This document shows, piece by piece, positions 7,621 through 63,589 of a DNA stretch of 64,000 bases (the first letter of the stretch is position 1; each line of letters begins with the position of its first letter). Source of the stretch: Thermoplasmatota archaeon (GTDB taxonomy: Archaea > Thermoplasmatota > Thermoplasmata > Thermoplasmatales > Thermoplasmataceae). The translations under genes were made by a program, and so were the position numbers. The stretch lies in assembly GCA_023379825.1 (NCBI GenBank), contig JAMCPQ010000005.1, positions 1 through 64,000 of the forward strand, given 5' to 3'. The notes beneath the pieces are model-generated. The model saw only the letters and a list, made by a program, of their open reading frames with translations, was not told the origin of the DNA and searched no databases.

Positions 7621-8469
7621 ATGTTCAGCAATGATCTGTTGAAAGGGAAAACTGTCCTTATCACAGGCGGAGGCACAGGTATAGGGAGGGAAATGGCCTT
7701 GCGTTTCTCGGAACTAGGTGCCTCCATATGTATTCTTGGAAGGAGAGAAAATGTACTGAAGGAGACCTGCAGTAAAATCAGGGAGAATAAAAGACCTGCC
7801 TTTTACCACGTATGTGATGTCCGATCCCCGGAGGAGATCTCATCCTCTCTGGATTTTTTCATAGAAAATGCCGGAATGCCTGACATTCTGGTCAACAATG
7901 CTGCGGGAAACTTTGTAAGTCCAACTGAACTGCTTTCTCCACATGCAGTTGATTCAGTACTTGGCATAGTTCTCCATGGAACGATATACATGACTCTTGA
8001 TCTTGGGAAGAGATGGATAAAGGCATCCCATAAGGGTGTTGTCCTGGACATTGTTACAACTTATTCATGGACAGGCTCTGCATTCGTCGTCCCCTCTGCA
8101 GCTGCAAAGGCAGGTGTTCTGGCTCTAGTAAGGTCACTTGCAGTAGAATGGGCCCATTATGGAATAAGGCATGTTGCGATTGCCCCCGGGCCATTCCCGA
8201 CAGAGGCTACCAGGAAGAACCTTTTCCCTATACCTGAGGTGGAGGAAATGTTATCGGAGCGAGTTCCCCTGGGAAGGGTCGGGAAAATGGAGGAGATAAC
8301 CAACCTTGCTGCATTCCTGATTTCAGATGGTGCTTCATTCATAAATGGTGAGGTGGTCACAATAGATGGAGGCGAATGGCTCAAGGGGGCTGGAGAGTTC
8401 AGCGGTCTGCTTGCACTTTCAAAGGAACAGTGGCAAACCATTAGGGAGATTTCCAGAAAGAAGAGTTGA
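7621..8469 (+). CDS. SDR oxidoreductase of the 2,4-dienoyl-CoA reductase type
   Basis: NAD(P)-binding TGGGTGIG at residues 15-22 and NNAAGNF near 92. The usual SDR YxxxK is absent; instead Tyr148 and Lys163 are 15 residues apart (TTYSWTG, then PSAAAK), the arrangement of mitochondrial 2,4-dienoyl-CoA reductase. The C-terminal SKEQWQTI segment also matches that subfamily. It should reduce a conjugated enoyl-CoA with NADPH, so a role in unsaturated fatty-acyl or aryl-acyl CoA breakdown is likely. It stands alone between two tRNA-Ser genes on the other strand. A TATA-like run at about 7588-7599 lies 25-30 nt before the ATG, consistent with a leaderless mRNA. Confidence 0.85.
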   Translation: MFSNDLLKGKTVLITGGGTGIGREMALRFSELGASICILGRRENVLKETCSKIRENKRPAFYHVCDVRSPEEISSSLDFFIENAGMPDILVNNAAGNFVSPTELLSPHAVDSVLGIVLHGTIYMTLDLGKRWIKASHKGVVLDIVTTYSWTGSAFVVPSAAAKAGVLALVRSLAVEWAHYGIRHVAIAPGPFPTEATRKNLFPIPEVEEMLSERVPLGRVGKMEEITNLAAFLISDGASFINGEVVTIDGGEWLKGAGEFSGLLALSKEQWQTIREISRKKS

Positions 8470-8509
8470 ACGAACTCGAACCATTGTCACTTTGATCAGA
8501 TCTGTGGAA

Positions 8510-8593
8510 CGCCGGGGGGGAGATTCGAACTCCCGAGCGAACAAGCGCAATAGATCTCGAGTCTATCGCCTTACCGGGCTAGGCTACCCCGAC
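8510..8593 (-). tRNA. tRNA-Ser(CGA)
   Basis: Class II tRNA. Acceptor GTCGGGG (8587-8593) pairs with CCCCGGC (8511-8517) through one G-T wobble. The anticodon stem ATAGA/TCTAT encloses loop CTCGAGA, anticodon CGA. It has a long variable arm and T arm GGGAG-TTCGAAT-CTCCC. The D arm is identical to that of the tRNA-Ser(GGA) 1 kb away. The CCA end is not encoded. Confidence 0.95.
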
Positions 8594-8672
8594 ACTGGTG
8601 CTCCCAGATGCTTCAGTTTAAAATAAATGATCTCATGAGAGGTTTCAAGGGATCCGGCAATCACGCCTGGAA

Positions 8673-9089
8673 CTAATTTTTAATTCTGTTATGTTCCTTC
8701 ATCATGCAGCGATCCATTACCACCATCATTCCATTCTGTTTTGCAAGATCAGCGGCATCAGAGTTCACGACACCTTCCTGCAGCCAGAGAACCTTCGGTG
8801 ATCTGGAAAGAGAATCTCTCACTATATCCAGAGCTGCTTCCGGTTTTCTGAACACATCCACGACATCCACCTTAATATGATCGGGAATGGAGGAAACAGA
8901 AGGGTAAGATTCGATCCCCTCCCATGTCTTAATTGCAGGATTCACTGGTATTATTCGGTATCCGTGGGACATCAGGTACTTTGCAACCCTGTAGCTGTCG
9001 CGGTCACTCTTATCTGATAAACCAACTACGGCAATATTCCTGTAATTTTTCAGAATTTCTGGAATGTGGGATTCATCGTATCCGGACAT
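8673..9089 (-). CDS. CoA-binding domain protein (YccU-like)
   Basis: A single Rossmann-like CoA-binding domain of 138 residues: NIAVVGLSDKSDRDSYRVAKYL at the nucleotide end, IIPVNP in the second strand, and WLQEGVVN near residue 102, all characteristic of the YccU/YmgB type of small CoA-binding proteins. It lacks the ligase domain of acyl-CoA synthetases, and its physiological role is unknown. It is divergent from the transcription factor S gene; its start is about 100 nt from that of TFS, so the two promoters share this gap. Confidence 0.8.
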   Translation of the reverse strand: MSGYDESHIPEILKNYRNIAVVGLSDKSDRDSYRVAKYLMSHGYRIIPVNPAIKTWEGIESYPSVSSIPDHIKVDVVDVFRKPEAALDIVRDSLSRSPKVLWLQEGVVNSDAADLAKQNGMMVVMDRCMMKEHNRIKN

Positions 9090-9190
9090 GATTTCCCATG
9101 AATCTTATGTTAAAAACGTTTATGTTTCTTAACACAGGGATAGGCGGAAATACGTCACAGTTAAATAGCTTCTCAAAATACAATATCTCA

Positions 9191-9499
9191 ATGTTTTGCC
9201 CCAAATGCGGTTCACTCATGACAAGTACCTCCGGAAGACAGGTATGTCCAAATTGTGGCTACACCAAATCTTCAAGCTCCGGTTCCGATTCGAAAATTGT
9301 TACTAAGGGCAGTGAGAAGGAGATCATAATCATAAGGGAGGAGAAGCAGACAGAGCCTCTGGATTCGGATGCTGTCTGTCCGAAATGCCACGAGCAGGGT
9401 GCCTATTATCTCCTGAAGCAAACCAGATCAGCGGATGAACCGGAGACGAAGTTCTACACATGTTCACACTGCGGTCACAGATGGAGAGACTATGCCTGA
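9191..9499 (+). CDS. tfs: Transcription factor S (TFS), RNA polymerase cleavage factor
   Basis: The N-terminal zinc ribbon (CPKCG, CPNCG) and C-terminal TFIIS-type ribbon (CPKCHEQGA, CSHCGH) flank a linker of about 40 residues. The C-terminal hairpin carries RSADEPET, whose acidic Asp-Glu pair stimulates transcript cleavage by stalled RNA polymerase. The frame is open upstream to 9098, but homology begins at MFCPKCG. A TATA-like AGTTAAATAG at about 9159-9168 sits 26 nt before that ATG, so 9191 (102 aa) is the start. SRP54 follows 43 nt downstream with its own TATA-like box. Confidence 0.95.
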   Translation: MFCPKCGSLMTSTSGRQVCPNCGYTKSSSSGSDSKIVTKGSEKEIIIIREEKQTEPLDSDAVCPKCHEQGAYYLLKQTRSADEPETKFYTCSHCGHRWRDYA

Positions 9500-48048: not shown

Positions 48049-48254
48049 TTATTCTCCTGTCACAGAATTATAATCCCCTAATAATCTTAATTGAAAATGT
48101 GAATGTTATTGTGTTAAATCATTAACTGTTTACGCTTCAATTTTTAAAATGAAATCCATTTTCTATACAAACAATGTAATGCAATATTCGTGGAGGAATT
48201 AACTTCAAAACAAGAAAACATTTTAAGCTGAAAATGGTATGGAAAACAGATAAC

Positions 48255-49709
48255 ATGAAAACAGAACAATACAGTCTCCGCTCATTCATAGAGAAGATAG
48301 ATTCAAGGGGGCTCCTGCGAAAGGTATCCGGGGCTGACTGGAACCTGGAGATTGGAGCACTTACCGATGCCAACGCAAAGATGAAAAAGTACACTCTCCT
48401 GTTTGATGACATTACAGGTTATCCGTCAGGAATGAGGGTGCTCACCGGTTCTCTGCTTGATGCCAACAGAGTTGCAGAAGCCCTTGGAATGTCAGGAAAT
48501 TTTGACGATATGGCCCTCACGTCTGAAATACGAAAAAGGTTGAGCCAGACTTCCTCCAGGCAGTCATCATTTGATCCGGAGTTTGTTTCTGATTCCCCAT
48601 TATTCGAGACCACTATGAAGGGTGATGAAGTAGATGTTACAAAAATACCTGTCCCAAAGTGGTTCAGCGAGGATGGTGGAAGATATATCGGAACAATGGA
48701 TGCAGTGATCACAAGGGATCCCGACAACGGTTGGGTAAATGTGGGTACTTACAGAATAATGGTGAAGGACAGAAATCACCTTGCTATTCTTATGGAAGCT
48801 TCAAGACATGGAAGAAACCATGTTGAGAGGTGGTTAAGGAAGGAGGGGAGAGTCCCAATTGCGGCATCATTCGGACACAATCCTGGCCTGAACCTGTTTT
48901 CCGCAAATGAGGTACCGGAAGGTGTATCCGAATACAACTATCTTGGTGCTGTCAGGGGAGAACCGGTAAAGGTTGTGAGAGGGCCAGTCACCGGTCTTCC
49001 TATCCCTGCCGATTCAGAGATAGCAATTGAGGGTTACATAGATTCAGAGATGACAGACGAAGGCCCACTTGGCGAGTTTATGGGCTACTATGCCGGAGGA
49101 AAGATGAGGAATCCGGTACTGCACATAGAGGCTCTGTATATGAGAAAGGACCCCATACTCCTGGGTACCTGTGCAGGGAAACCCCCATACGACTATTCAT
49201 ACTTCAGGTGCCCAATCAGGGCCTCTCTAATATGGAACACACTTGAAAGTGCCGGTATTTCAGGAGTAAAAGGGGTATGGTGCCATGAGGAAGGTTATTC
49301 CAGAGCGTTCACCGTAGTTTCAATCAGGCAGATGTTCGGAGGACATGCTGTGATGGCAGGACATGTTGCATCGCAGTGCAGGCCTGGGGCTGTTTCTGGA
49401 AGATACACTGTGGTGGTCGATGAGGATATCGATCCTTCCAATATTCATGATGTTATATGGGCTATGTGTAGCAGGAACGACCCTGCCACGGGCATCGACA
49501 TAATCAGAAGCACAATGGGAACCCCGCTTGATCCGATCTCCGTCCATACTGAGGGAAAGGATATTCTTGAATACACAAGTTCAAGGGCCATCATAATGGC
49601 AGTAAAGCCCATGGAGAAGATCATTAAAGGCACCTTCCCTGAGGTGGTAAGGGCAGATAGGGAGACTGATTCAAAGGTAAGGGTAAAGTTTCAGGAGATC
49701 CTGAAATGA
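48255..49709 (+). CDS. UbiD-family prenyl-FMN decarboxylase, active-site residues complete
   Basis: Reversible (de)carboxylation of aromatic or alpha,beta-unsaturated acids on prenylated FMN. All three catalytic residues are present by motif alignment: Arg167 in NVGTYRIM, Glu269 and Glu274 in DEGPLGEFMGYY, equivalent to Arg173, Glu277 and Glu282 of Fdc1. The start at 48255 is preferred over 48234 because the TATA-like CATTTTAAGC (about 48218-48227) puts the transcript start near 48248. Length 484 aa. It is the one UbiD of the three here with a standard active site. Confidence 0.9.
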   Translation: MKTEQYSLRSFIEKIDSRGLLRKVSGADWNLEIGALTDANAKMKKYTLLFDDITGYPSGMRVLTGSLLDANRVAEALGMSGNFDDMALTSEIRKRLSQTSSRQSSFDPEFVSDSPLFETTMKGDEVDVTKIPVPKWFSEDGGRYIGTMDAVITRDPDNGWVNVGTYRIMVKDRNHLAILMEASRHGRNHVERWLRKEGRVPIAASFGHNPGLNLFSANEVPEGVSEYNYLGAVRGEPVKVVRGPVTGLPIPADSEIAIEGYIDSEMTDEGPLGEFMGYYAGGKMRNPVLHIEALYMRKDPILLGTCAGKPPYDYSYFRCPIRASLIWNTLESAGISGVKGVWCHEEGYSRAFTVVSIRQMFGGHAVMAGHVASQCRPGAVSGRYTVVVDEDIDPSNIHDVIWAMCSRNDPATGIDIIRSTMGTPLDPISVHTEGKDILEYTSSRAIIMAVKPMEKIIKGTFPEVVRADRETDSKVRVKFQEILK

Positions 49710-49849: not shown

Positions 49850-51451
49850 ATGGTGTTTCATGATCTGAGGGATTACCTCAAAGAGCTGGATAAGAAAGGA
49901 TTGCTTAGAACTGTCGATCGGCCTACGAAGATAGAAACTGAGCTGATGCCTCTTGTCAGAGTGCAGTTCAGGGGAATGCCGGAATCACAGAGAACAGGCT
50001 TTCTCTTCACAAATGTCCATAATTCAAAGGGAAGGAAATTCGATGCAAGAGTTTGCACCGCTGTTCTTTCAAGTTCCATGGATATTTATGCAACTGGGAT
50101 GGAGTGCAAACCTGATGAGGTTCCTGATCGCTTCACATTCGGAATAAGTCATCCCATTGAACCAAAGCTGGTAGGCAGCGGAAAATGCCAGGAGGTTGTA
50201 ATAAGCGGTGAGGATTTGGAGAAGCATGGCCTTATGGATATCCCATTTCCAGTCGAGATTCCCGGTTACAGCTGCCAGGTAAGAACCACAACTGCATTCG
50301 TTACAAAAGATCCGGAAACAGGCGTGCAGAATGCAGGTACCTATTCTGGGCAGGTATTCGGACCAAGGAAGATTCTGTGGGAAATACACAGAGGAAGCCA
50401 CGGGTTCACCCATCTCAAGAAAGCTGCAGAAAGGGGTAAGACCATGGATGCAGCGATTGTTATTGGCGGTCCCCCCTACGTTCAGTATACGGCAGCAGCC
50501 AAGGTTCCTTACGGAATGGATGAGTTCGCTGTGGCAGGAGGGATAGCCGGTGAGCCCATAGAAGTTGTACGATGCAAAACAGTCGATCTGGTAGTGCCGG
50601 CAACAGCGGAATACATAATTGAAGGCAGGGTCTCTGTAGAGGACTTCGAACAGCAGACCCCATTCGGGGAATACACAGGTTATGTTGCAGCAGATGTGGA
50701 AAGTCAGTGGTGCCCTGTGATGGAAGTGACAGCTGTGACTCACAGGAAGGACAGTCCAATATTTCAGACAATCATTAGCCAGATGCCTCCAAGTGAAAGC
50801 AGCAAACTCAGGCAGGTTGCATATGGAAGTGCTTTCACAAAGTTTCTGAAAGATGACTGCGGCCTTCCTGGAATAAGGAAAGTGGCTTTTCATGAATCAA
50901 GCGGAAGCTGGCAGTACTGTGTCATACAGCTGAAGAAAACCGGCCCTACGGATGCAATGAGAGCTCTTGTCTGTGCATCAGGATATGCCTCAGACATTGG
51001 AAAGGTGATAATTGCAGTGGATGAGGACATAGATCCCTTTGACCCTGATTCTGTCAACTGGGCTTTGAGTTTCAGGATGCAGCCTCACAGGGACATTCAG
51101 ATAATTAGGGGAAAGTCTGCCCATCTTGATCCGTCGGCGGCGAATCCTGGTGAGGAAACTGGGCCAAAGGGCTATCTCGAGAGCTCTGCGCTTCTCCTTG
51201 ATGCAACGAGAAAGACAGACTATCCACCAACTTCACTTCCGAAGCGCGAGTACATGGAGAATGCACTCAAGATATGGAAGGAACTTGGATTTCCTGAGCC
51301 TGTAATGAAGAACCCGTGGTACGGATATGATCTGGAAAAATGGACAAGCGAGTATGACAGGTACTCAAAGATGGTACTCCATGGAGATCATTTTCAGATA
51401 GGTAAGGAGCTGGAAAAGAAAAGGATAAAAATGAATATACTGGAGAAGTAA
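49850..51451 (+). CDS. UbiD-family protein lacking the standard Arg and first Glu of the active site
   Basis: Full-length UbiD fold (533 aa): N-terminal domain, prFMN-binding region (MPPSESSKLRQVAYGS, VDEDIDPFDPDSVNWAL) and C-terminal hairpin. Where active UbiD enzymes read GTYR, this has GTYS (Ser166); where they read EGPFGE, it has QTPFGE (Gln269 to Glu274). So the residues equivalent to Fdc1 Arg173 and Glu277 are lost while Glu282 is kept. It is closely similar to the UbiD at 57586. A TATA-like ATGTTTATTTG (49819-49829) lies about 25 nt upstream. It may use a different chemistry, or be a non-decarboxylating paralogue. Confidence 0.9.
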   Translation: MVFHDLRDYLKELDKKGLLRTVDRPTKIETELMPLVRVQFRGMPESQRTGFLFTNVHNSKGRKFDARVCTAVLSSSMDIYATGMECKPDEVPDRFTFGISHPIEPKLVGSGKCQEVVISGEDLEKHGLMDIPFPVEIPGYSCQVRTTTAFVTKDPETGVQNAGTYSGQVFGPRKILWEIHRGSHGFTHLKKAAERGKTMDAAIVIGGPPYVQYTAAAKVPYGMDEFAVAGGIAGEPIEVVRCKTVDLVVPATAEYIIEGRVSVEDFEQQTPFGEYTGYVAADVESQWCPVMEVTAVTHRKDSPIFQTIISQMPPSESSKLRQVAYGSAFTKFLKDDCGLPGIRKVAFHESSGSWQYCVIQLKKTGPTDAMRALVCASGYASDIGKVIIAVDEDIDPFDPDSVNWALSFRMQPHRDIQIIRGKSAHLDPSAANPGEETGPKGYLESSALLLDATRKTDYPPTSLPKREYMENALKIWKELGFPEPVMKNPWYGYDLEKWTSEYDRYSKMVLHGDHFQIGKELEKKRIKMNILEK

Positions 51452-51452
51452 T

Positions 51453-52082
51453 TCAGTACTTCTCCATATATTCAATGACCCGGCTCATTGGCGAAACTTC
51501 CCCAAAATTTTCATGAAAGTTCTTCAGGAAAGGAACGTGCATATCAATATACGGTGTACTGACACACTCCTCAACAATCACGGTCTCGTAGTCATTCATG
51601 AACAGTTGCCTGGCAGTAGAGTCCACACAGAGATTTGTCTGCGTTCCAGTAACGAAAACACGTTCCACACCAAGCGTTCTAAGAATCACAGGCAGATCCG
51701 TTCCCAGCATGGCGTCATATCTGTGTTTCACAACCACCGGTTCACCGGGAAGAGGTTTCAGGCCATCAACAATTTCTGTCCCATATGATCCGGAAGCACA
51801 AATCCCGGGAGCATTGGATTTCCCTCTATTTCTTGATTTCCATACGGAAGAGTCGGTAAACTTTTCATGCACAGTTCGGGTATACACGACAGGTATCCCT
51901 TTTTTCCTGGCTTTTCCAATCAAAATGCCTATTCTGTCAACCGTTGCCTTTACAGGTGACAGGTCAATGCCACTTCGCGCCAGATAACCATCGTCTGATA
52001 CGAAGTCAACCTGCATGTCGATCACAAGAAGCGCGCTTCCTGCTTTTTTCCATGAATTTTTTGCAGTGAACATCCGGATCAC
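51453..52082 (-). CDS. Isochorismatase-fold cysteine hydrolase
   Basis: A small hydrolase with the Asp-Lys-Cys triad: Asp in LLVIDMQVDFV, Lys in VVVKHRYDAM and Cys in TQTNLCVDST. Family members cleave amides such as nicotinamide, maleamate, ureidoacrylate or carbamoyl-sarcosine. Length 209 aa. It starts 3 nt after the aldolase stop, so the two are one operon. The substrate is unknown; an amide from ring opening would fit the surroundings. Convergent with the UbiD gene, 1 nt apart. Confidence 0.88.
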   Translation of the reverse strand: MIRMFTAKNSWKKAGSALLVIDMQVDFVSDDGYLARSGIDLSPVKATVDRIGILIGKARKKGIPVVYTRTVHEKFTDSSVWKSRNRGKSNAPGICASGSYGTEIVDGLKPLPGEPVVVKHRYDAMLGTDLPVILRTLGVERVFVTGTQTNLCVDSTARQLFMNDYETVIVEECVSTPYIDMHVPFLKNFHENFGEVSPMSRVIEYMEKY

Positions 52083-52085
52083 GAC

Positions 52086-52802
52086 TCAAAGAACTGTGCC
52101 CCTTTTCTCCACTCTTGTAAGGAAATATCCCCAGTCTGATTCCTGGAGTTCCTCTCTTATCTCAGCTGATTCACTTCGCTCTATATCCTCAAGCGGGAAC
52201 TCCAAAAATTTACCAATTGCCCTGAGATAATAGCTTTTGCGGGCGGCACGTTCAAGCGCAGCAGCTCTCGTTACGACTTCTTCAATGCTTCTTCCAACCA
52301 TGAAAACCCCGTGACCTCTATGCAGCAGAACATCCTTACTTCCAAGAAGATCCGCCATCTCCTCACCCATCTTTTCTGTATTCACGAATAATGGCAGGCC
52401 TGAATATACGGCGATGCCCTCTGTGAAGAGAAATGAATCTCTTGAGGAAAACAACATGTCTTCCCCGGACATTCCAATCAGATTACTGTAGAATGCGTGC
52501 ATATGGAGTGCAGCTTTCAACTCCGGCCTTCGTCTGAACATGGCGGAGTAGAAGTAGAATTCGTGCATCGATTCGGGATATCTTCCCTCAATTACTTTTC
52601 CGTCGTAATCTATTGTTACTATATCAGAGGCTGTGCAGTCCGCAATGGATCTCTGATAATCATGCAGATGGCCGGGTATGAGAATCCTGTTGTCAGAAAT
52701 CTTGTAGACAACATGCCCTCTCCCAAGTTCTGTCAGGTTCTCATTAACGAGGATTCTGTTGGCCATTGCCAGCTTCTGTTTAAGGCCTTCATAATTTTCC
52801 AT
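52086..52802 (-). CDS. Class II aldolase/adducin family protein
   Basis: A zinc-dependent aldolase-like protein. HMHAFYSNL provides the His-X-His metal ligands and LLHRGHGVFMVG the third His region, with the C-terminal helical end (AAALERAARKSYYLR). Family members cleave or form C-C bonds of sugar phosphates or decarboxylate/aldol-cleave short acids, so a late step in ring-cleavage product breakdown is conceivable. Length 238 aa. A TATA-like box (52821-52833) 25 nt upstream suggests it starts its own two-gene operon with the isochorismatase. Confidence 0.82.
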   Translation of the reverse strand: MENYEGLKQKLAMANRILVNENLTELGRGHVVYKISDNRILIPGHLHDYQRSIADCTASDIVTIDYDGKVIEGRYPESMHEFYFYSAMFRRRPELKAALHMHAFYSNLIGMSGEDMLFSSRDSFLFTEGIAVYSGLPLFVNTEKMGEEMADLLGSKDVLLHRGHGVFMVGRSIEEVVTRAAALERAARKSYYLRAIGKFLEFPLEDIERSESAEIREELQESDWGYFLTRVEKRGTVL

Positions 52803-52820
52803 AATGTCAATAGGACTTTT

Positions 52821-52833
52821 GTTTTAATATAGT
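52821..52833 (-). promoter_or_regulatory. TATA-like promoter of the aldolase-isochorismatase pair
   Basis: Minus-strand ACTATATTAAAAC, centred about 25 nt before the aldolase ATG at 52802, fits a leaderless transcript. Confidence 0.5.
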
Positions 52834-52896
52834 TTATCAATAGAATACCATTAGCGAATAAAAAGTAAATATAAATGCCAGCAATATTAACAAATC

Positions 52897-53571
52897 TCAA
52901 TGATTACTTCTATTCAGTATACCTGCTATCTCACTTGAAGAGAGGACATATGCATACTTCAGATCCAGATCGAAGAGTGTTACTTCATGAGATATTTTTG
53001 ATCTGTCCGCCACACATTCTTGAGGAATTGCCACAGTGTAGTTGTAGGAAAAAGCATCCAGTGCAGTTGCCCTGACACATCCAGAGGTAACCATTCCAGT
53101 AAGAACTATCCCTGTGACATGGAGATAATTCAGCATAGAGATCAGGGGAGTTCCAAAGAAAGCACTGGGTTTGGATTTTTCAATCACCGGTTCTCCCTTT
53201 AAAGGGGCAATTTCGCTGTAAATTGTGTTGTAATCCGTCCTCTGGTCAGCTGGAACAGGCTCACTCTTGTTGTTCCAGGTTCCACGATGAATTCTGTATA
53301 CATCCTGGTCAGAAGTCATGTCTCTTGTATAGATGACAGGCAGCTTTTTCCGCCTGAACAAATCAAGCATTTTTTTTATATTAGCTGAGCATGGAATTCC
53401 GGTTTTACTGAATCCTGTTCGGAACCTATCCATCACAAAGCCATTGGTCATGTCCACGATGAGCAGAGCTGGATTTTTTCCAAGATCCGGTTCTGCACTT
53501 CCATTAGGGCTTCTGTATTTTCCAAGCAGATTCTCTCTGTCCTCCAATGGGATAACATCCGGTATGTACAT
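52897..53571 (-). CDS. Second isochorismatase-fold cysteine hydrolase
   Basis: Divergent paralogue of the hydrolase at 51453. Asp in ALLIVDMTNGFV, Lys in PVIEKSKPSAF and Cys in MVTSGCVRAT give the complete triad. The N-terminal extension (about 30 residues, IPLEDRENLLGKYRSPNG) and the GTPLISMLNYLHVTGI segment resemble N-carbamoylsarcosine amidase and maleamate amidohydrolase more than nicotinamidase. Length 224 aa. It lies between the cupin and the aldolase. A TATA-like tract near 53596 may serve it separately from the upstream genes. Confidence 0.85.
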   Translation of the reverse strand: MYIPDVIPLEDRENLLGKYRSPNGSAEPDLGKNPALLIVDMTNGFVMDRFRTGFSKTGIPCSANIKKMLDLFRRKKLPVIYTRDMTSDQDVYRIHRGTWNNKSEPVPADQRTDYNTIYSEIAPLKGEPVIEKSKPSAFFGTPLISMLNYLHVTGIVLTGMVTSGCVRATALDAFSYNYTVAIPQECVADRSKISHEVTLFDLDLKYAYVLSSSEIAGILNRSNH

Positions 53572-54029: not shown

Positions 54030-55478
54030 CTATATGGAAGTGTGAAGATCGTATTCCTGCATGAATCTCTCAACATCAGCCATTGCAGAGTTATAGTCAA
54101 AGTTCCTGTAGGCGTACATTCTAGAGACGTAAGGAGCACCGGCATAGAACATCTCGTACTGCAGGTGCCTGCCTGCAAATTCAGAACCAATAATATCCCA
54201 TACCAGTCTGAAGAGTTTGATCCTTGAGACTGTATCAGCTGAGGATGATCCGACGTATCTCTCCATGTCCTCTCTTGTTTCCGGATTTTCTATTTCCATG
54301 AAGGTGGAAGGGAGCTGTAATACACCAGCCCCCGATAGCTCCTTAAGTATGCCTACAGCTCTGGGATATATCTCAGCCTGAAGACCCATTGGCCCGTAAA
54401 GATATCTGGGATTGGGCACAAATGCCCCGTATTCCCTCTTCGATCCGGATGCCTCAGATGCAATGCACATACCCTCAACCATAGATGATATGGAGGCAAG
54501 TTCACCGAGACGCTCCAGAACTCCCTGAATTCTGTCTGTTCCATTCATCTTTGCAACTTTTGCTGCCAGTCCTGCGATGAAACGCAGTTTAACTGCAAGC
54601 CTGATCTGTGCCTGGTTGTTTCCATAAATATGTGCTGGTGTCTCAAAGAACTGTGCCTGCAGTAGCTTAACATCCCTGAATACAAAAACGTCACTCCAGG
54701 GTATGAAAACATCATCAAAAACCACAATGGCATCGCTTTCATCAAACCTGGTGGACATTGGATAGTCAAAAACACTTGTTCTGTAAAAACCATACGGTGG
54801 CCTGCAATAAAGTTTCAAGCCTCTTGCACCTATCGGGACAACAAAGGATAGGGCGTAATTTTCATCCCCCTCCCCCAGTGGTGGTATACAACTCACGAAG
54901 AGTTCATCTGCCACCGCTGCACCTGTTCCAAGCATCTGAGACCCCCTGACCACTATCCCGTCCTGTCTCTCCTCAACCAGAGATACCTGGATATGTGAAT
55001 CAGGAAGTTCATGGGCTTTTTTTGATCTGTCAACCTGAGGAGGAATTATGGAGTAAGACAGATAAATATCACTGTCCACAAGTCTCCTGTAGTGCCTTAT
55101 GACGTTCTCACTGAATGGCTTTGCTCCTCTGTCAAAGACTGCTGGATTTGACGCAAAGCCTGCGAAAAAAGATCCAACATGGTCAGGGCTCCTTCCCACG
55201 AATCCCATGGACATTTCCGCCCATTTAGCTATGGCCTGATGCCTCTCGTTTAGACCGTTCAGGTCATGTGGAATCATAAAGGTCCTGTTGCCAGTTGTAC
55301 CCCATGGTGTTTTGAATTGCATCTGATTTTTTGGATCCGAAGAATAATCATACATCTTTTTCAGTGTATCTATTATCCCTTTGAAATAAGGGGATTTAGT
55401 GACATCTGTTACAACTTCACCATTGATGTATACCTTTCTATTTCCGAGGGAATTCTCATAATCAGATCCTGTTCTCAT
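54030..55478 (-). CDS. HpaB-type flavin-dependent aromatic hydroxylase
   Basis: Oxygenase component of a two-component monooxygenase of the 4-hydroxyphenylacetate 3-hydroxylase family (acyl-CoA dehydrogenase fold), which uses reduced flavin from a separate reductase to hydroxylate a phenol or similar ring. Seen: SPYFKGIIDTLKKMYDY, AIAKWAEMSMGFVGRSPDHV, the substrate loop SMGFVGRSPD, VFDDVFIPWSDVF and SRMYAYRNFDYNSA near the end. Length 482 aa is standard. The reductase gene lies upstream in the same operon. The native substrate is unknown. HpaB-fold enzymes also include 4-hydroxybutyryl-CoA dehydratase and pyrrole-carboxylate monooxygenase, but no 4Fe-4S site is visible here. Confidence 0.85.
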   Translation of the reverse strand: MRTGSDYENSLGNRKVYINGEVVTDVTKSPYFKGIIDTLKKMYDYSSDPKNQMQFKTPWGTTGNRTFMIPHDLNGLNERHQAIAKWAEMSMGFVGRSPDHVGSFFAGFASNPAVFDRGAKPFSENVIRHYRRLVDSDIYLSYSIIPPQVDRSKKAHELPDSHIQVSLVEERQDGIVVRGSQMLGTGAAVADELFVSCIPPLGEGDENYALSFVVPIGARGLKLYCRPPYGFYRTSVFDYPMSTRFDESDAIVVFDDVFIPWSDVFVFRDVKLLQAQFFETPAHIYGNNQAQIRLAVKLRFIAGLAAKVAKMNGTDRIQGVLERLGELASISSMVEGMCIASEASGSKREYGAFVPNPRYLYGPMGLQAEIYPRAVGILKELSGAGVLQLPSTFMEIENPETREDMERYVGSSSADTVSRIKLFRLVWDIIGSEFAGRHLQYEMFYAGAPYVSRMYAYRNFDYNSAMADVERFMQEYDLHTSI

Positions 55479-56159: not shown

Positions 56160-56645
56160 TCACTTCCCTGTTGTTTCGAATTTTCTCCTGTAATATACCA
56201 TTGAAGTGTTCTGATTGTGTATGATGCCTGCTGTCACCCTGCCGATTATCATGGCATGATCTGCAATGTCCTCCTCCATATAGAGGTCACATTCAATTCT
56301 GCCAATGGAATCTTTGAGATAGGCTATGCCATCTGAAGTAACACCGCGACTGAACTTCAGAAATTTATCTTCGTCTCCATCTCTGGAAAAACCTACTGCT
56401 GCATCTTCCTGATTTCCACTGAGCAGGCTGACAACAAATTTCCTGCTCTTGCCTATTGCATCAAGGGTCCGGCTGCCCTTTATTATGAAAACTGCCACCA
56501 GGGGAGGATTCATGGATACAGTGGTAAATGAGTTCATGGTTGCACCGTAATCCCTGCCATTCAGTGATGTTGAGACGACTGTGACTCCTGTTGGATATCT
56601 CCTCAGCAATTCCCTGTATTCGTCCCCGGAAAATGATTCGCTCAT
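56160..56645 (-). CDS. Flavin reductase (HpaC-like)
   Basis: Provides reduced FMN/FAD to the HpaB oxygenase. RRYPTGVTVVS at the N terminus, MNSFTTVSMNPPLVAVFI with the flavin-contact segment and the C-terminal VYYRRKF are typical of the split-barrel FMN reductases. Length 161 aa. It is the first gene of the operon, with a TATA-like box (56665-56673) about 24 nt upstream and a 7-bp inverted repeat just beyond it. Confidence 0.9.
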   Translation of the reverse strand: MSESFSGDEYRELLRRYPTGVTVVSTSLNGRDYGATMNSFTTVSMNPPLVAVFIIKGSRTLDAIGKSRKFVVSLLSGNQEDAAVGFSRDGDEDKFLKFSRGVTSDGIAYLKDSIGRIECDLYMEEDIADHAMIIGRVTAGIIHNQNTSMVYYRRKFETTGK

Positions 56646-56907: not shown

Positions 56908-57480
56908 ATGAACAGAATAAACGATGCTGTTTCCCTGATAGTGGAAAATAATCCGATCCATGCATTGATGGTAAGAAGTGGGGTATGCAACAGCACCAGT
57001 CTTGCCAGAAGAATCAAACCAAGTGTTGATGCAATGCTTGGAAAAGATGTGAAACTGAATTCTATTGTGAAGGCGATCTCAGGCCTGAAGCCGGACGAGG
57101 GCTGGGACAGACAGCTTGAATTTCTAAGGAGTTCAAATCTCACCCTTGAATATAGGCATTCAGAGAGAGAGGGAAATGTTGAAAGCCTGAAACTGGATAA
57201 TTTTGTTCTAGCATACCGGGATATGGGGCACATCAGAATAGTGGAAAGGGATGTGGACCATGGGAATCTGGCATGTATAAGGATCAGGCTCCCTGAAAAC
57301 GCATCAGGTGCACCGGGCCTTTCCCTGTTCATTGTGCAGTATCTCATGATTCAGAGGCATCCTGTGGAGAGAATTTACAGGCTTGGAAGAGAGATCATGC
57401 TTATTTGCAGTACGGAAGAGGCAGAGGTCATTCTGAAGCATCTGAGCAGGCTTATGTTCAGCAAAGAACCGGGCAGCTGA
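56908..57480 (+). CDS. Putative ACT-like regulatory protein
   Basis: A 190-residue protein with no firm family call. The first 60 residues (NNPIHALMVRSGVCNSTSLARRI, then KLNSIVKAISGL) look like a compact helical domain. The last 60 residues (LPENASGAPGLSLFIVQYLMIQRHPVERIYRLGREIMLI, with an EEAEVILKHLSRL helix) resemble an ACT small-molecule-binding domain. Such archaeal proteins have been thought to sense amino acids or related ligands. It is divergent from the hydroxylase operon and 105 nt before the third UbiD gene, so it is a candidate local regulator. Confidence 0.5.
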   Translation: MNRINDAVSLIVENNPIHALMVRSGVCNSTSLARRIKPSVDAMLGKDVKLNSIVKAISGLKPDEGWDRQLEFLRSSNLTLEYRHSEREGNVESLKLDNFVLAYRDMGHIRIVERDVDHGNLACIRIRLPENASGAPGLSLFIVQYLMIQRHPVERIYRLGREIMLICSTEEAEVILKHLSRLMFSKEPGS

Positions 57481-57585: not shown

Positions 57586-59187
57586 ATGGAACATTATTAC
57601 AGAGACCTCAGAGAATACCTTTCAGTTCTGAAGGAAAATGATCTCCTGTACGAGATTGACCGGCCTGTGAAGAAGGAGACGGAGCTAACGGCCATCTCAA
57701 GGTTGCAGTACAGGGGAATGCCGGAGGACAAAAGGAAGGGTTTTATATTCAACAATGTTGAAAGTGTGAGCGGAAGAAAGTATGACATCCCTGTTGCGAC
57801 AGGCATTTATGCCTCCTCCCTCAGGATGTATGCCCTGGGTGTAAAGGCAGAACCCACAAGAGAGTCCATTGTTGGCAAATGGGAGAAGGCACAGCTGAGC
57901 CCTGTGAAAACCAGAATGGTTGAAAGTGCCAGGGTGCAGGACATTGTGATCAAAGGTGACGACCTCGATAAAGATGGAAAGGGGTTGGACTCTCTGCCAA
58001 TACCTGTGGAGCTACCTGGATTCAGCGGCCAGATCAGGACATCAACCCAGATCATTACCAGAGACCCTGAAACTGGTATAAGGAACGTTGGAAATTACTC
58101 GGCTCATCTCTTCGGCAAGAGAAAAATGATGTGGGAAATAAACAGAGGAAACCAGGGCATAATTCACTGGAACAAGTGGAAGAAACTTGGAAAACCAATG
58201 CCTGCTGCAATAGTTGTTGGTGGCCCTCCGTCATATTTCTTTGTGGGAGCAGCTAAAATTCCGTACGGTGTGGACGAGTTTGACATTGCCGGAGGATTCG
58301 CAGGGGAACCCGTGGATATGGTCAAGTGCAAAACAGTGGACATGGAGGCTCCGGCCAATGCAGATATCATAATAGAGGGTCTCATATCCACGGAATACAT
58401 GGAACCGGGAAATGCCTTTGGCGAATACACCGGTTATATGGCAACTGACGTATGGTTGAGGCCGGTTATAGACGTTACAGCAGTAACCATGAGAAAGGAT
58501 CCTGTATTTGTACACATAATGAGCCAGTTTCCCCCAAGTGAAAGCAGCAAGGTCAGGCAGGTTTCTTCTGAAAATGTGTACCTGAAATTCCTGAAATATG
58601 ATGCAAAAGTCCCCGGCATAATAGATGTAGCATGGCATGAAATGAGTCAGGCTCAGTGGTGTGTTATAAAGATAAAGAAACAGAACAAGTCCCACCCATG
58701 GCAGGTTCTCAATATGGCAGCAGCTTACGATCTTAGATGGGGGAAGTTCTTCATAGTTGTGGATGACGACATTGACATCAGATCAATGGATGCTGTGATA
58801 TGGGCACTTGGCTGGAGAGTACAGCCCGCCAGAGATGTCAGGATATTCAGTGGAAAGATGCCGGGTCTTGATCCATCAGCATACAGTCCGGGAGCAAGCC
58901 ATGAAGAGAAAGAATTTCCAGGAGGAGTGGGCAGTTCAGGAATACTGATTGATGCAACAATCAAATATCCCTATCCTCCAACATCACTTCCCAGAAAAGA
59001 ATACATGGAGAATGCGCTCAAAATTTGGAAGGAGCTGAAATTGCCTGAACTGAATCTGGTGGAGCCGTGGTACGGCTATGAACTTGGTTACTGGCCGGAT
59101 GAATTCAGAAAAGACGCAGAGGATATAGTCAGTGGCAATGTATACAAAATAGGTGAGCGCCTGGGCAAACTCCGTCAGAAAGTTTAA
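57586..59187 (+). CDS. UbiD-family protein lacking the standard Arg and first Glu of the active site (second copy)
   Basis: Same length (533 aa) and close paralogue of the UbiD at 49850. The usual GTYR is GNYS (Ser172), and the usual EGPFGE is GNAFGE (Gly275 to Glu280), so the Arg173 and Glu277 equivalents are gone while the Glu282 equivalent remains. A Glu two residues earlier (YMEPG, Glu273) could partly take over. The prFMN-binding segments (FPPSESSKVRQV, DDDIDIRSMDAVIWAL) remain. TATA-like CTAAATATC at 57558-57566 is about 24 nt upstream. A PNPOx-like gene follows after 23 nt, in probable operon. Confidence 0.9.
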   Translation: MEHYYRDLREYLSVLKENDLLYEIDRPVKKETELTAISRLQYRGMPEDKRKGFIFNNVESVSGRKYDIPVATGIYASSLRMYALGVKAEPTRESIVGKWEKAQLSPVKTRMVESARVQDIVIKGDDLDKDGKGLDSLPIPVELPGFSGQIRTSTQIITRDPETGIRNVGNYSAHLFGKRKMMWEINRGNQGIIHWNKWKKLGKPMPAAIVVGGPPSYFFVGAAKIPYGVDEFDIAGGFAGEPVDMVKCKTVDMEAPANADIIIEGLISTEYMEPGNAFGEYTGYMATDVWLRPVIDVTAVTMRKDPVFVHIMSQFPPSESSKVRQVSSENVYLKFLKYDAKVPGIIDVAWHEMSQAQWCVIKIKKQNKSHPWQVLNMAAAYDLRWGKFFIVVDDDIDIRSMDAVIWALGWRVQPARDVRIFSGKMPGLDPSAYSPGASHEEKEFPGGVGSSGILIDATIKYPYPPTSLPRKEYMENALKIWKELKLPELNLVEPWYGYELGYWPDEFRKDAEDIVSGNVYKIGERLGKLRQKV

Positions 59188-59210
59188 CCTGTTAGAAACA
59201 TTGAGTGGCA

Positions 59211-59696
59211 ATGTCTGAATATCTGGGAAAGAAGATTCCGGAGAATATTCTTTCCATAATTTCTCCGGACAAAGAAGATCGCCTTAACAGTGCTGTTTTC
59301 CTGATAACTGTGGACACAGACGGATCTCCGAGGTCTGCATTGCTGTCTCCCTATCAGATATGTTCTGTTTCAGAAGGGGAATTTTTCTTCACAGTTTATA
59401 AAGGCTCTCACACTTCAATGAACCTTGAAGAGAATGGGAAGTCCCTTTTTATTTTCCAGATTGAGGGTGGTGTCACATATGTCCGGTGCATTTCGGAAGT
59501 GATGCCTCAGGAGAGTATAAAAAACTATTTTTCTGATGAAATTCTCTTTCTGGCTTCAGATCTGGAGGTCTCAAGAGACTTTTCTGAAAAGGCAAGAATC
59601 ACATCAGTAACATCATTCGACCAGTCCAGTGTGCAGAAAAACTACACCGAAACATTCAGGCAGATAAGGAATGTGGCAAAAAGCTGGAAGAGCTAG
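59211..59696 (+). CDS. Pyridoxamine 5'-phosphate oxidase-like split-barrel protein
   Basis: A small flavin-binding-type split barrel: NSAVFLITVDTDGSPRSALLSPYQICSV followed by FFFTVYKGSHTSMNL, as in PNPOx-like proteins. Length 161 aa from the ATG at 59211; the GTG two codons earlier (59205) is less likely. It has no recognised substrate and may bind FMN, F420 or heme. Co-transcription with the UbiD gene raises the possibility that it helps handle flavin. Its 3' end overlaps ubiX by 4 nt, convergent. Confidence 0.65.
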   Translation: MSEYLGKKIPENILSIISPDKEDRLNSAVFLITVDTDGSPRSALLSPYQICSVSEGEFFFTVYKGSHTSMNLEENGKSLFIFQIEGGVTYVRCISEVMPQESIKNYFSDEILFLASDLEVSRDFSEKARITSVTSFDQSSVQKNYTETFRQIRNVAKSWKS

Positions 59697-60256
59697 TCCA
59701 CACCCCACTCTAGCCTGTGTTTTGTATCAATCCCCAGCATTCCAAGCACTCTTCCTGCAGTGAGGTCGACCATCCTGGAAAAATCATTAAGCTCAAAGTA
59801 AAGTGGGGGAAGTGGGGGCATTATTATTCCTCCTGCCTCGGTAACCTGAAGCATATTTCTTATGTGTATGAGGTTCAGAGGGGTCTCTCTCGTGAGCAGA
59901 ACCAGCCTTCTCCTCTCTTTCAGGTGCACAGAAGCTGCCCTTGACACCAGATTATTCTCAAATCCGGTAGCAATGCTTGACAGAGTTTTCATTGAACACG
60001 GTGCAACTATCATTCCTGAGGTTTCAAAGGAACCGCTTGCAATTGGAGCTTCAAAATCGTATTCGCCATATGATCGGGTGGCAAGAGATTCAAGTTCAGA
60101 CGGTTTCAGTTTTGTCTCAATTCTAAGGGTTGCTTCTGCACCGGAGGAAACTACAAGATGGGTCTCAATATCAGGAATCTCTCTGCATATCTGCAGCAAC
60201 CTCACTCCATATACTGCCCCGGTTGAGCCGGTAACAGCTATAACAATTCTTCTCAT
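59693..60256 (-). CDS. ubiX: Flavin prenyltransferase UbiX
   Basis: Adds a dimethylallyl group to FMN to make prenyl-FMN, the cofactor of UbiD decarboxylases. The N terminus IVIAVTGSTGAVYGVRLL, VAPCSMKTLSSIATGFENNL and VLLTRETPLNLIHIRNML, PPLPPLYF are diagnostic. Length 187 aa. The single UbiX copy in the window presumably serves all three UbiD proteins, two of which flank it within 10 kb. Convergent with the split-barrel gene. Confidence 0.95.
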   Translation of the reverse strand: MRRIVIAVTGSTGAVYGVRLLQICREIPDIETHLVVSSGAEATLRIETKLKPSELESLATRSYGEYDFEAPIASGSFETSGMIVAPCSMKTLSSIATGFENNLVSRAASVHLKERRRLVLLTRETPLNLIHIRNMLQVTEAGGIIMPPLPPLYFELNDFSRMVDLTAGRVLGMLGIDTKHRLEWGVD

Positions 60257-60364: not shown

Positions 60365-61138
60365 ATGGAAACGGGTAATTATACTACAGTGAACGGAATT
60401 AAACTCTATTACGAGAGAAGCGGATCAGGAACTCCTGTTATTTTTCTTCATACGGCAGGCACTGATGGACGGGTGTGGAAGGAATTTGTATCTTTGCTTC
60501 CAGAAGGTATAACAGCAATTGTGCCGGACCTTCCAGGTCATGGTAAATCATGGCCATGGAAGCAGTGGAGAAAGAAGAGAGTGGATGTAAGGTTCTACTC
60601 TCTCTCAATTCTTGAAATGATGGATCAGATTGGAATTGACAGAGCCATACTTGTTGGCTGCTCAATAGGAGCTGACATAGTTCTTGACATCTGTTCCATG
60701 CATCCGGAGAGAGTTATACGTGCCCTGGTGATGGAGGGTGCCGCAAGGACAGAAACATTTGAGGTTGAAACCATAATGAAAACCGAAACTGGAAATGTTG
60801 AAAGAGCCTTTGATTTCTGCGGCTCACTTTCCCATAAAAACAGCATAGAAAACCTGATCTGGATCAGAAGCTCCAATAACAGGGATATTTATATCAACGA
60901 CCTCCTGGCATGGAATTCATTTGACATTTCACACGATATTGACGGCTGCAAAACTGAAATATATCTCCTGAGAGGCTCTGAGGATCCTGTTGTCACAGAG
61001 GATATGCTGATTGCCACTTCCAAATACCTGCCAAACAGCCATATGATCACTATGGAAGGACTGGGACACTATCCGATGCTGGAACGCCCTGACTTATGCT
61101 TGAAAAATATTCAGGGTCTGCTTGAAAAGCAGGCCTAA
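60365..61138 (+). CDS. Alpha/beta-fold hydrolase
   Basis: A serine hydrolase: oxyanion region VIFLHTAGTDGRVW, nucleophile in VGCSIGADI, Asp in RGSEDPVVT and His in GLGHYPMLERP. Length 257 aa from the ATG at 60365. Homology starts there (TVNGIKLYYERSGSGTP), so the open frame back to 60317 is not used. Possible roles include cleavage of a ring-cleavage C-C or amide bond, or lactone or ester hydrolysis. It overlaps the convergent cyclase gene by 4 nt. Confidence 0.85.
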   Translation: METGNYTTVNGIKLYYERSGSGTPVIFLHTAGTDGRVWKEFVSLLPEGITAIVPDLPGHGKSWPWKQWRKKRVDVRFYSLSILEMMDQIGIDRAILVGCSIGADIVLDICSMHPERVIRALVMEGAARTETFEVETIMKTETGNVERAFDFCGSLSHKNSIENLIWIRSSNNRDIYINDLLAWNSFDISHDIDGCKTEIYLLRGSEDPVVTEDMLIATSKYLPNSHMITMEGLGHYPMLERPDLCLKNIQGLLEKQA

Positions 61139-61956
61139 ATAATTGCTACCGGTCTTATTGGTGTTCCGGTGGTACCGCGCATCTTCAGGGGGAGAGCTAT
61201 GAATAGAAACTCATATGTCTTAGCTTTTGCCAGTTCTTCAAGGAAAAGATTCTCCATAATGTAAACGCCGTTCTTTGCTATGAGGTGAAGATGCCCCGGC
61301 TGAATCACTCCTGTTTCTCTGTCCACCTTCCCGGGGACGTCCCAGGCAAGGTTATCAGCTCCCACAGCGAAGCATCTCTCTGAAAGATATTTGCTTACCT
61401 CTCCTGATATGCCAGCGGCATTTCTGTATCTTGAGAAATCATTCCAGTATTTTCCATATCCTGTTCTGACAAGGATAACATCCTCCTTCCCGAATGAGAC
61501 ACCTTCCTTCTTTGCAACCTTCTGGAACTCTTCCAGGCTTACTTCATGGTTTTCCGGAAGAGGATCACCGAGGATTTCGGTACAGTCAATGAGAATACCT
61601 TTCCTTATAATTGGGGGAATTTTTGAAGAATCGTGTTTATTGAATCCCCATGGGGTTTCCACCTCACTGTTGATTGGTGTGCCGTCAAACATCTTCATGT
61701 CATAGGCCTGATGGCAGAGTGCATCAAGGTGCGTACCTGACTGGTCCGTCATTACAATGAGTCCCGAGGAGCTGCTTCTCCTGTTTTGAGGTGAGCTTGA
61801 ATAGTAATTTTCGTGCTGTCTGTAGAGGAAGTATTCCATTGCAGGTTTTACCGGATCAAAAGCAGGCATTCCTGGGAATCTTTCATGTTCCAGATCTATA
61901 ATTCTGGCTTTCCCGGAGATCATTTCAAGAATCTTCAATCCATGGTTTTCCGCCAT
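61135..61956 (-). CDS. Cyclase family hydrolase (kynurenine formamidase-like)
   Basis: A metal-dependent amidase of the cyclase family: the metal motif SGTHLDALCHQ (HxDxxxH) is near residue 93, with GMPAFDPVKP at the start and VLVRTGYGKYW, VGADNLAWDVPG, HLHLIAKNGVYIMENL further on. Known members hydrolyse N-formylkynurenine, isatin or similar amides. Length 273 aa. The start at 61956 is one base after the stop of the upstream cupin (TGAGATG), so the two are coupled. Substrate unknown. Confidence 0.85.
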   Translation of the reverse strand: MAENHGLKILEMISGKARIIDLEHERFPGMPAFDPVKPAMEYFLYRQHENYYSSSPQNRRSSSSGLIVMTDQSGTHLDALCHQAYDMKMFDGTPINSEVETPWGFNKHDSSKIPPIIRKGILIDCTEILGDPLPENHEVSLEEFQKVAKKEGVSFGKEDVILVRTGYGKYWNDFSRYRNAAGISGEVSKYLSERCFAVGADNLAWDVPGKVDRETGVIQPGHLHLIAKNGVYIMENLFLEELAKAKTYEFLFIALPLKMRGTTGTPIRPVAII

Positions 61957-61957
61957 C

Positions 61958-62404
61958 TCAATCCCTCCGCAGATCCGGGTTGACATCAAGTTTAGCCGCT
62001 GATTTTATCTCAATAGCCGTGTAATCTGTCCCCTTTTTAGCTACAACGGTATGAGAAACACCTCTGGGGATGTGTATCATTGTTCCCGGTTTGAGATGGA
62101 ATTCCCCTGTTTCTGTTGTCCAGGTGGCCTCACCTGAAATACAGATAATCACCTCGTCAAAATCCATGTTCCTGTGCCAGAAGGGCATTGGTTCTCTTCT
62201 CTTGGACAGTTCAATCCTTGTTGCTTCGGATGTGAGAAGCTTCATAGTAGGTCCGGAGTCTTTCAGCATGTTTGGCGGGAGAAGGCCACCTGTATCTATA
62301 AAAGAAGTTTTATGGGCTAGTTTCTCAGTGACATTTTTGGGTTCTCTATTAAAGGTAATGTCTATTCCTTCTGAAGTCAGTTTTTCCACTATTTTGTCGG
62401 CCAT
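61958..62404 (-). CDS. Cupin-domain protein upstream of the cyclase
   Basis: A 148-residue single cupin. The metal motif PFWHRNMDFDEVIICISGEA supplies one His (the second His of the usual His-X-His is Asn) and a Glu; the second motif PRGVSHTVV supplies another His. Cupins of this size include 3-hydroxyanthranilate dioxygenase-type enzymes, isomerases and non-catalytic binders; this one lacks the canonical His-X-His, so activity is open. A strong SD (AGGAGGT, 62409-62415 on the minus strand) precedes the ATG, unusual among the leaderless genes here. Confidence 0.75.
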   Translation of the reverse strand: MADKIVEKLTSEGIDITFNREPKNVTEKLAHKTSFIDTGGLLPPNMLKDSGPTMKLLTSEATRIELSKRREPMPFWHRNMDFDEVIICISGEATWTTETGEFHLKPGTMIHIPRGVSHTVVAKKGTDYTAIEIKSAAKLDVNPDLRRD

Positions 62405-62623
62405 GGTAACCTCCTGATAATTGGTTTACTTTAGATAAACATATCTGAAGATAACAATATGTAAAGGTCTATGGAAATTAAGGAGTTTTTATAAATTTAA
62501 ATTTTCATAGAAGATTTCTAAATAAACATATTAAAGAATTTAGTATATTTATATTTGTAAGGCAGAAGCAATAAATATATTGTGAAATCAAAAGAGTTAT
62601 AGTAAAATGATTAATAATGTTCC

Positions 62624-63589
62624 ATGAAAAATATAGATGTCCACTCACATTACCTCCCAGAATCAACCATAAAAGAGTTTGGCGGAACTGTTTCTGGTGG
62701 AAGAAGTGATGGGCTTTACAGAATTGAAGTTCTTAAAAAGGTAATTGCCCCTATGCCTGAAGGATTTTTCCGGCAGGCTCCAAGGATCAGGGAAATGGCA
62801 GATCTTGGGATAGATCACCAGATTCTATCACCAACACATCATCTGTTCTCCTATGATTTACCGGCAGAGAAGGCTCTTAAAATCTGTGTATCACAGAACA
62901 ATGGAATAGCTGAAGTTTGCAGAAATGACCCAATCCACTTCAGTGGAAACGCAACATTGCCCCTTCAGGATTCAAAGTTAACATTAGGTGAGATACAGCG
63001 AATCAGTTCCGACCTGGAATTGTCCGGTGTCGAGTTTGGAACCAACATCGCAGGAAGTAACCTTGATGATGAAGGGCTCTTTCCTGTATATGAGGAACTG
63101 CAGAGCCAGGGACTGCCGGTATTTGTGCACCCAAACGATTTCATGGGAAAAGAGCGGCTCTCCAGATATTACATGGGAATCGTAGTGGGAACAATAGCGG
63201 AAACAACTGTGGCAGTTACAAGCCTCATTATGGGTGGTATTCTGAAGAAATTCCCTAAACTCAGATTCATTTTCTGCCATGGAGGAGGTGCAATTCCGTA
63301 CCAGATTTCCAGAATCAAACAGGGAATAGAGGTCAGGGAGGAGAACGCCGGAAGTGCATCTTTTGACAGTGAAACACTAAGTCATTTACTTTTCGACACT
63401 GTACTCTTTGACAGCAAAGCTATGAATCTTCTCATAGATTCATGGGGAAGGGAAAATGTGGTCTTCGGAACGGACTACCCCTTCAATATGGGAAACTGGA
63501 AATCTCACAATCTGCTTGCGTCTTCAGTCAGCGGAAATATTGACATGATACTGAAGGGGAACGCTGAACGCCTTTACAGAAAGAATTGA
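62624..63589 (+). CDS. ACMSD-type amidohydrolase (decarboxylase family)
   Basis: An amidohydrolase-fold protein of the 2-amino-3-carboxymuconate-semialdehyde decarboxylase / gamma-resorcylate decarboxylase group, which decarboxylates ring-cleavage products or aromatic acids. N-terminal IDVHSHYLPE gives the His-X-His pair, VFVHPNDF a mid-chain His, FCHGGGAIPYQ another, and VFGTDYPFNMG the conserved Asp. Length 321 aa is typical. A TATA-like GAGTTATAGTAA is centred about 26 nt before the ATG. Convergent with the partial hydroxylase gene. Confidence 0.88.
   Translation: MKNIDVHSHYLPESTIKEFGGTVSGGRSDGLYRIEVLKKVIAPMPEGFFRQAPRIREMADLGIDHQILSPTHHLFSYDLPAEKALKICVSQNNGIAEVCRNDPIHFSGNATLPLQDSKLTLGEIQRISSDLELSGVEFGTNIAGSNLDDEGLFPVYEELQSQGLPVFVHPNDFMGKERLSRYYMGIVVGTIAETTVAVTSLIMGGILKKFPKLRFIFCHGGGAIPYQISRIKQGIEVREENAGSASFDSETLSHLLFDTVLFDSKAMNLLIDSWGRENVVFGTDYPFNMGNWKSHNLLASSVSGNIDMILKGNAERLYRKN

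Follow-up and report, generated by a model that had tools for sequence, protein, structure and literature searches.

Paired archaeal UbiD proteins without the arginine and first glutamate of the catalytic network, encoded beside a PhdC-like protein

By current descriptions, enzymes throughout the UbiD family share an Arg–Glu–Glu/Asp network on which catalysis depends, and maturation of the cofactor requires its arginine. In A. niger Fdc1 the network consists of Arg173, Glu277 and Glu282 (PMC5818171). The R173A variant stalls as the prFMN radical and has traces of activity, while variants of Glu277 mature and are weakly active; good activity needs either the intact network or a Glu-to-Asp exchange, and a change of the first Glu disturbs the charge state of the acid (PMC5818171). 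In AnInD, docking brings the carboxylate of the substrate to the corresponding Arg (PMC8988006). PhdC, the protein of structure 9SRG, converts the radical form of prFMN by oxidation into the active iminium and can switch on UbiDs whose own maturation is poor; its BLAST relatives of similar length are reported from Actinomycetota only (PMC13040415). VdcC requires VdcD for its activity (PMC10865409). In the literature searched, which did not include subscription journals, we saw no natural UbiD described that lacks the Arg–Glu pair. A natural subfamily of this kind, kept by selection, would be a direct test of what the network is needed for.

Two UbiD proteins with a replaced Arg–Glu pair

The window analysed here covers 64 kb from the start of a contig of 79.5 kb, which belongs to an archaeal MAG of 1.25 Mb. 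It encodes two UbiD proteins, referred to as types A and B (Table 1), which are 50% identical and whose reading frames run intact from ATG to stop, in agreement with the positions and the full length assigned to them by the first-pass annotation. That annotation had also read serine for the Arg of the GTYR motif in both proteins and glycine or glutamine for the first Glu, with the last Glu kept, and HMMER alignments to HmfF, E. coli UbiD and 7PDA reproduce this exactly to the residue. Ser172 (A) and Ser166 (B) lie on the conserved Arg, Gly275 and Gln269 on the first Glu, and Glu280 and Glu274 on the last Glu of the family motif, with no Arg or Glu at the replaced positions. The resulting motifs are GNYS and GNAFGE in type A, and GTYS with QTPFGE or QPPFGE in type B. 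Hence one or two residues following the first Glu differ as well (EGP has become GNA in A and QTP or QPP in B), which the annotation had not recorded. The third UbiD of the window is canonical, as had been claimed, although its reading frame begins upstream of the start given for it, 48255, which is an in-frame ATG. The claim had leaned on Fdc1, in which the Arg and the first Glu were said to affect both prFMN maturation and catalysis; this holds for the Arg, whose loss stalls maturation, whereas first-Glu variants still mature and lose activity (PMC5818171).

Table 1. Positions of the main features of the cluster in the window
Feature	Position	Strand	Remarks
Canonical UbiD (UbiDc), full R-E-E	48234..49709	+	Motifs GTYR, EGPLGE
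Type-B UbiD	49850..51451	+	533 aa; Ser166 (Arg), Gln269 (first Glu), Glu274 kept
Isochorismatase-family hydrolase, class II aldolase (PhtC-like), second isochorismatase	51453..53571	-	
HpaB-type FADH2-dependent monooxygenase	54030..55478	-	Pfam HpaB_N/HpaB
Flavin reductase (HpaC/StyB-like)	56160..56645	-	NCBIfam matches below cut-offs
Type-A UbiD	57586..59187	+	533 aa; Ser172 (Arg), Gly275 (first Glu), Glu280 kept; EGP to GNA
PhdC-like split-barrel protein, candidate prFMN maturase or carrier	59205..59696	+	163 aa; between type-A UbiD and UbiX; profile, Foldseek, synteny
UbiX flavin prenyltransferase	59693..60256	-	PRK06029/TIGR00421 above cut-off; convergent, overlaps PhdC-like gene
Cyclase and cupin (-), amidohydrolase-2 (+)	61135..63589	-/+	Conserved cluster neighbours

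Both proteins match PF01977 and PF20696 above the cut-off, and type A alone matches PF20695 (N-domain); TIGR00148 is above its cut-off in type B and 0.6 bits below it in type A. Scores against TIGR02723 and TIGR02724, the subunits of phenylphosphate carboxylase, were 100-137 bits, below the cut-offs of 565 and 469. For type A, AlphaFold2 gives a model (pLDDT 83) that has the UbiD fold, with a Foldseek E of 4e-38 to 5M1D, and matches prFMN-bound structures of UbiD, HmfF and Fdc1. It is worst at the active-site loop that follows the acid Glu (residues 282-288, pLDDT <50), so the replacement residues cannot be placed in it. By fold, by domain composition and by the Asn, His and Glu that match ligands of the metal and the prFMN phosphate, A and B are members of the UbiD family, yet they do not carry its R-Xn-E-X4-E/D catalytic motif.

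Distribution and descent of types A and B

Close relatives of A and B are encoded by the Thermoplasmatales archaeon UBA447 (94-95% identical), the uncultured archaeon ASS_A1, whose genome is complete (75-78%), Thermoplasmata YP3.bin51 (75-77%) and Aigarchaeota SKYB10 (64-65%), and both types also occur in G390, another genome from the phylum of this aigarchaeon. Each of the six genomes with members has a single copy of either type, and these genomes belong to two phyla (Thermoplasmatales; Aigarchaeota/Thermoproteota). Members were found in these six only when about 850 genomes, nearly all of the same two phyla, were searched; a broad scan of genome contigs with narrow patterns found four loci, and a search of viral contigs found no relatives of A or B. 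The carriers of the A/B pair seen here are a few acid- or heat-loving archaea.

The replaced Arg is Ser in all 12 members, and the first Glu is Gly in every type A (6/6) and Gln in every type B (6/6). Among the other UbiDs examined, a mostly archaeal set in which two of the 59 entries are the same locus fetched twice, Arg and Glu are both present in 59/59, the closest canonical sisters included, and the pattern in A and B is therefore not chance. We further compared the 30 columns that are conserved in at least 90% of canonical UbiDs. Those altered are 172, 275, 276, 277 (in A only) and, in part, 260, where four type-A proteins have Asp for Glu. Asn167, His194 and Glu231, which match the metal and prFMN-phosphate ligands of Fdc1 and PA0254, and the acid Glu280 are present in 12/12; the position of the ligand His is variable in other UbiDs. 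A misalignment in which Glu273 would be the true first Glu was considered and ruled out, since this residue is separate in the canonical sisters (EPEGPFGE) and absent in type A of G390. Ten more columns are invariant in A and B and rare in canonical UbiDs, Arg151 and Lys322 (12/12) among them, and these two may compensate for the lost pair.

In the tree, A and B form one clade (99/98) within which each type is itself a clade (A 100/100, B 100/99). Because this joint clade is monophyletic with the canonical sisters outside, the Arg–Glu pair was most simply lost once, on the stem of A and B before the two were duplicated. The first-pass annotation had stressed that two proteins lost both residues; the joint loss stands, but as one ancestral event rather than two independent ones. 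The serine codon differs synonymously among members (TCG, TCT, TCC and TCA), and comparisons of close species give a dN of about 0.03 against a saturated dS, which argues that the serine is kept by selection. Decay of the two genes is ruled out by the same observations together with the intact reading frames. The suggestion that the two proteins have not decayed but may differ in chemistry or substrate is thus supported, with purifying selection, a probable single loss on the stem and the other conserved columns intact all on its side.

The gene cluster and its PhdC-like protein

In the window and its relatives, A and B are clustered with one or two canonical UbiDs, UbiX, the HpaB-type monooxygenase and its flavin reductase, two isochorismatases, a PhtC-like class II aldolase, cupins, a cyclase and an amidohydrolase, as well as DUF2848, xanthine-dehydrogenase-type genes and MFS transporters. 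UbiX is part of the cluster in the window, UBA447, ASS_A1, YP3.bin51, the aigarchaeon and G390, and relatives of UbiDc, 58-59% identical, are present in both Thermoproteota genomes that have A and B. The HpaB, aldolase, isochorismatase, cyclase, amidohydrolase and xanthine-dehydrogenase-type genes suggest a pathway for the breakdown of an aromatic or N-heteroaromatic acid, and no ring-cleavage enzyme was identified in the cluster. A fourth, canonical UbiD lies about 4 kb past the window (67756-69219 of the contig, C5 of genome G000; 7757-9220 of locus L058), beside xanthine-dehydrogenase-type genes, and is also found in ASS_A1. Two open reading frames of the region are without a family match: one of 475 aa near the cluster (L058 11218-12645, contig position about 71217-72644) has no match in Pfam or NCBIfam, and one of 190 aa upstream of type A (56908-57480 of the window) has none in Pfam and was seen again, of all loci compared, in that of UBA447 alone. 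Near A and B of G390, subunits of a Rieske ring-hydroxylating dioxygenase (L054 729-2580) are encoded where the Thermoplasmatales have HpaB.

The gene between type A and UbiX encodes a protein related to PhdC. Single sequences match PhdC with E values of 0.003-0.005, and a profile built from four orthologues finds its best PDB match in PhdC (9SRG; PMC13040415; E=2.8e-8). Foldseek searches with the AlphaFold2 model (pLDDT 88) likewise place PhdC at ranks 1-8 in the PDB, with a best E of 7.9e-9 and a TM of about 0.7, so that fold and sequence both relate the two proteins. The catalytic glutamates of PhdC are less well represented: Glu47 is Gln in 9/10 PhdC-like proteins and Glu in that of the aigarchaeon, and there is no invariant Glu around the region of Glu136. 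For this reason we regard catalysis as a maturase as doubtful, and a role as carrier or chaperone as just as likely.

The order type A, PhdC-like, UbiX is shared by the window genome, UBA447, ASS_A1, YP3.bin51 and the aigarchaeon, and in G390 it is canonical UbiD, PhdC-like, UbiX. The PhdC-like gene thus lies beside UbiX in all of these, as it does in G016, G032 and G004, but not in G013 and G029; among its carriers are five relatives in which no A/B UbiD is complete, and in two of these UbiX does not adjoin it. Among 61 relatives it is found in 3/3 genomes with A and B and in 5/58 of the others (p = 0.0016, with relatedness ignored). In G032 (contig C13, L083 4740-6308) a 100-aa C-terminal remnant of a type-A UbiD stands directly before the PhdC-like and UbiX genes, and is a relic of the same module of type A, PhdC-like protein and UbiX. 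In G004, a MAG that is 76% complete, the PhdC-like and UbiX genes are convergent and overlapping (L086 4902-5975), and no UbiD was found. In G029 (L085 153-638) and G013 (L087 4827-5405) the PhdC-like gene, without UbiX, adjoins an open reading frame resembling a pyridine-nucleotide-disulfide-type oxidoreductase. What these sequence comparisons add to the first-pass annotation is an apparently single, ancestral and conserved loss, a paired A/B subfamily, and a putative PhdC-like partner.

A possible mechanism and its relation to known systems

Given the roles of the network in Fdc1 and AnInD, A and B should struggle to mature prFMN and to hold a carboxylate in the usual way. They nevertheless probably work as prFMN enzymes with a changed pocket, and we favour a model in which both still bind prFMN and the retained Glu280 or Glu274 would serve as acid-base towards a substrate acid that is aromatic or heteroaromatic, in a pocket remodelled without the Arg–Glu pair by which other UbiDs hold the carboxylate of the substrate and tune the acid. 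Binding of the carboxylate or the substrate would have moved to other residues, of which the new and invariant Arg151 and Lys322 are candidates. A and B would act as a pair, either as a heteromer or in two steps. Maturation of prFMN would be assisted by the PhdC-like protein, as we infer from the stalled cofactor oxidation that follows loss of the Arg in Fdc1. We give this model as a whole an even chance. That these parts add up to a two-protein prFMN enzyme without the Arg–Glu pair, in which the carboxylate is held differently and maturation has been moved to a separate PhdC-type protein, is a more specific proposal that we consider unlikely. As only Glu-to-Asp changes retained good activity in Fdc1, A and B may also be without any UbiD-type activity.

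The alternative that survives best, though we judge it rather improbable, is that A and B are partly or wholly non-catalytic subunits of a heteromeric carboxylase or decarboxylase, comparable to VdcCD or phenylphosphate carboxylase, with the chemistry done by the canonical UbiD of the cluster. The joint presence of A and B in every genome with members, the canonical UbiDc in all six, the conservation of multi-UbiD clusters, the moderate NCBIfam scores for phenylphosphate carboxylase subunits and the inactivity of VdcC without VdcD all fit such a complex. Pseudo-subunits, however, usually lose their cofactor and acid residues, and Asn167, His194, Glu231 and Glu280 are all retained here; moreover, homologues of UbiDc also occur in genomes without A and B. 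It is likewise improbable, in our estimate, that A and B are ordinary UbiD decarboxylases of unchanged chemistry in which nearby residues such as Arg151, Lys322 or Glu273 have taken over the roles of the Arg and Glu. Besides the invariance of the first two, the alignment puts Lys322 no more than two residues from the His by which HmfF selects its substrate, and Glu273 precedes the lost Glu by two residues; yet the canonical sisters have Glu273 as well and type A of G390 lacks it, and position 151, next to a Thr that is conserved, may face away from the pocket. Finally, a different prFMN reaction with no net release of CO2, or the use of plain FMN, would fit the loss, in every member, of the residue by which substrate carboxylate and CO2 are held, and the disturbed charge state of the acid after a first-Glu change in Fdc1 (PMC5818171), but is most improbable in a context of acid catabolism with UbiX adjoining and genes typical of aromatic degradation.

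If A and B are prFMN enzymes with a remodelled pocket, as we favour, they would be a natural test case of how UbiDs that do not self-mature obtain active prFMN. The PhdC-like protein, a candidate maturase, resembles the prFMN maturase PhdC of Mycolicibacterium fortuitum (and YclD) in fold, in size and in its place beside UbiX and UbiD, and PhdC is its best sequence match in the PDB. It differs from PhdC in being 17-19% identical and in the catalytic glutamates described above. Such a protein is now pointed to in archaea, while the PhdC study reports BLAST relatives of similar length from Actinomycetota only (PMC13040415); the gene is absent from the two bacterial sister plasmids tested.

The canonical sisters (from Rhizobiaceae plasmids, Paraburkholderia caribensis and the aigarchaeon; L039-L044 and L056) are 38-48% identical to A and B and share with them a C-terminal extension of about 70 residues that is common only to these nearest relatives, and the neighbours of the bacterial ones include xanthine-dehydrogenase-type genes and UbiX. 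Unlike A and B, they occur singly and have GTYR and EPEGPFGE intact. One of them, on a Phyllobacterium zundukense plasmid (L042 9845-11599), is in pieces in different frames. Compared with the UbiD family at large (PF01977/TIGR00148; E. coli UbiD, HmfF, Fdc1 and 7PDA), A and B are alike in domains, fold, prFMN and metal ligands, acid Glu and adjoining UbiX, but in every member two residues of the R-E-E/D network, the Arg and the first Glu, are replaced, and positions 276-277 are altered too (277 in A only). The R173A and E277Q variants of Fdc1 are changed at the same two positions; these are single mutants made in the laboratory with little or no activity, whereas the changes in A and B are natural, combined and conserved in two archaeal phyla.
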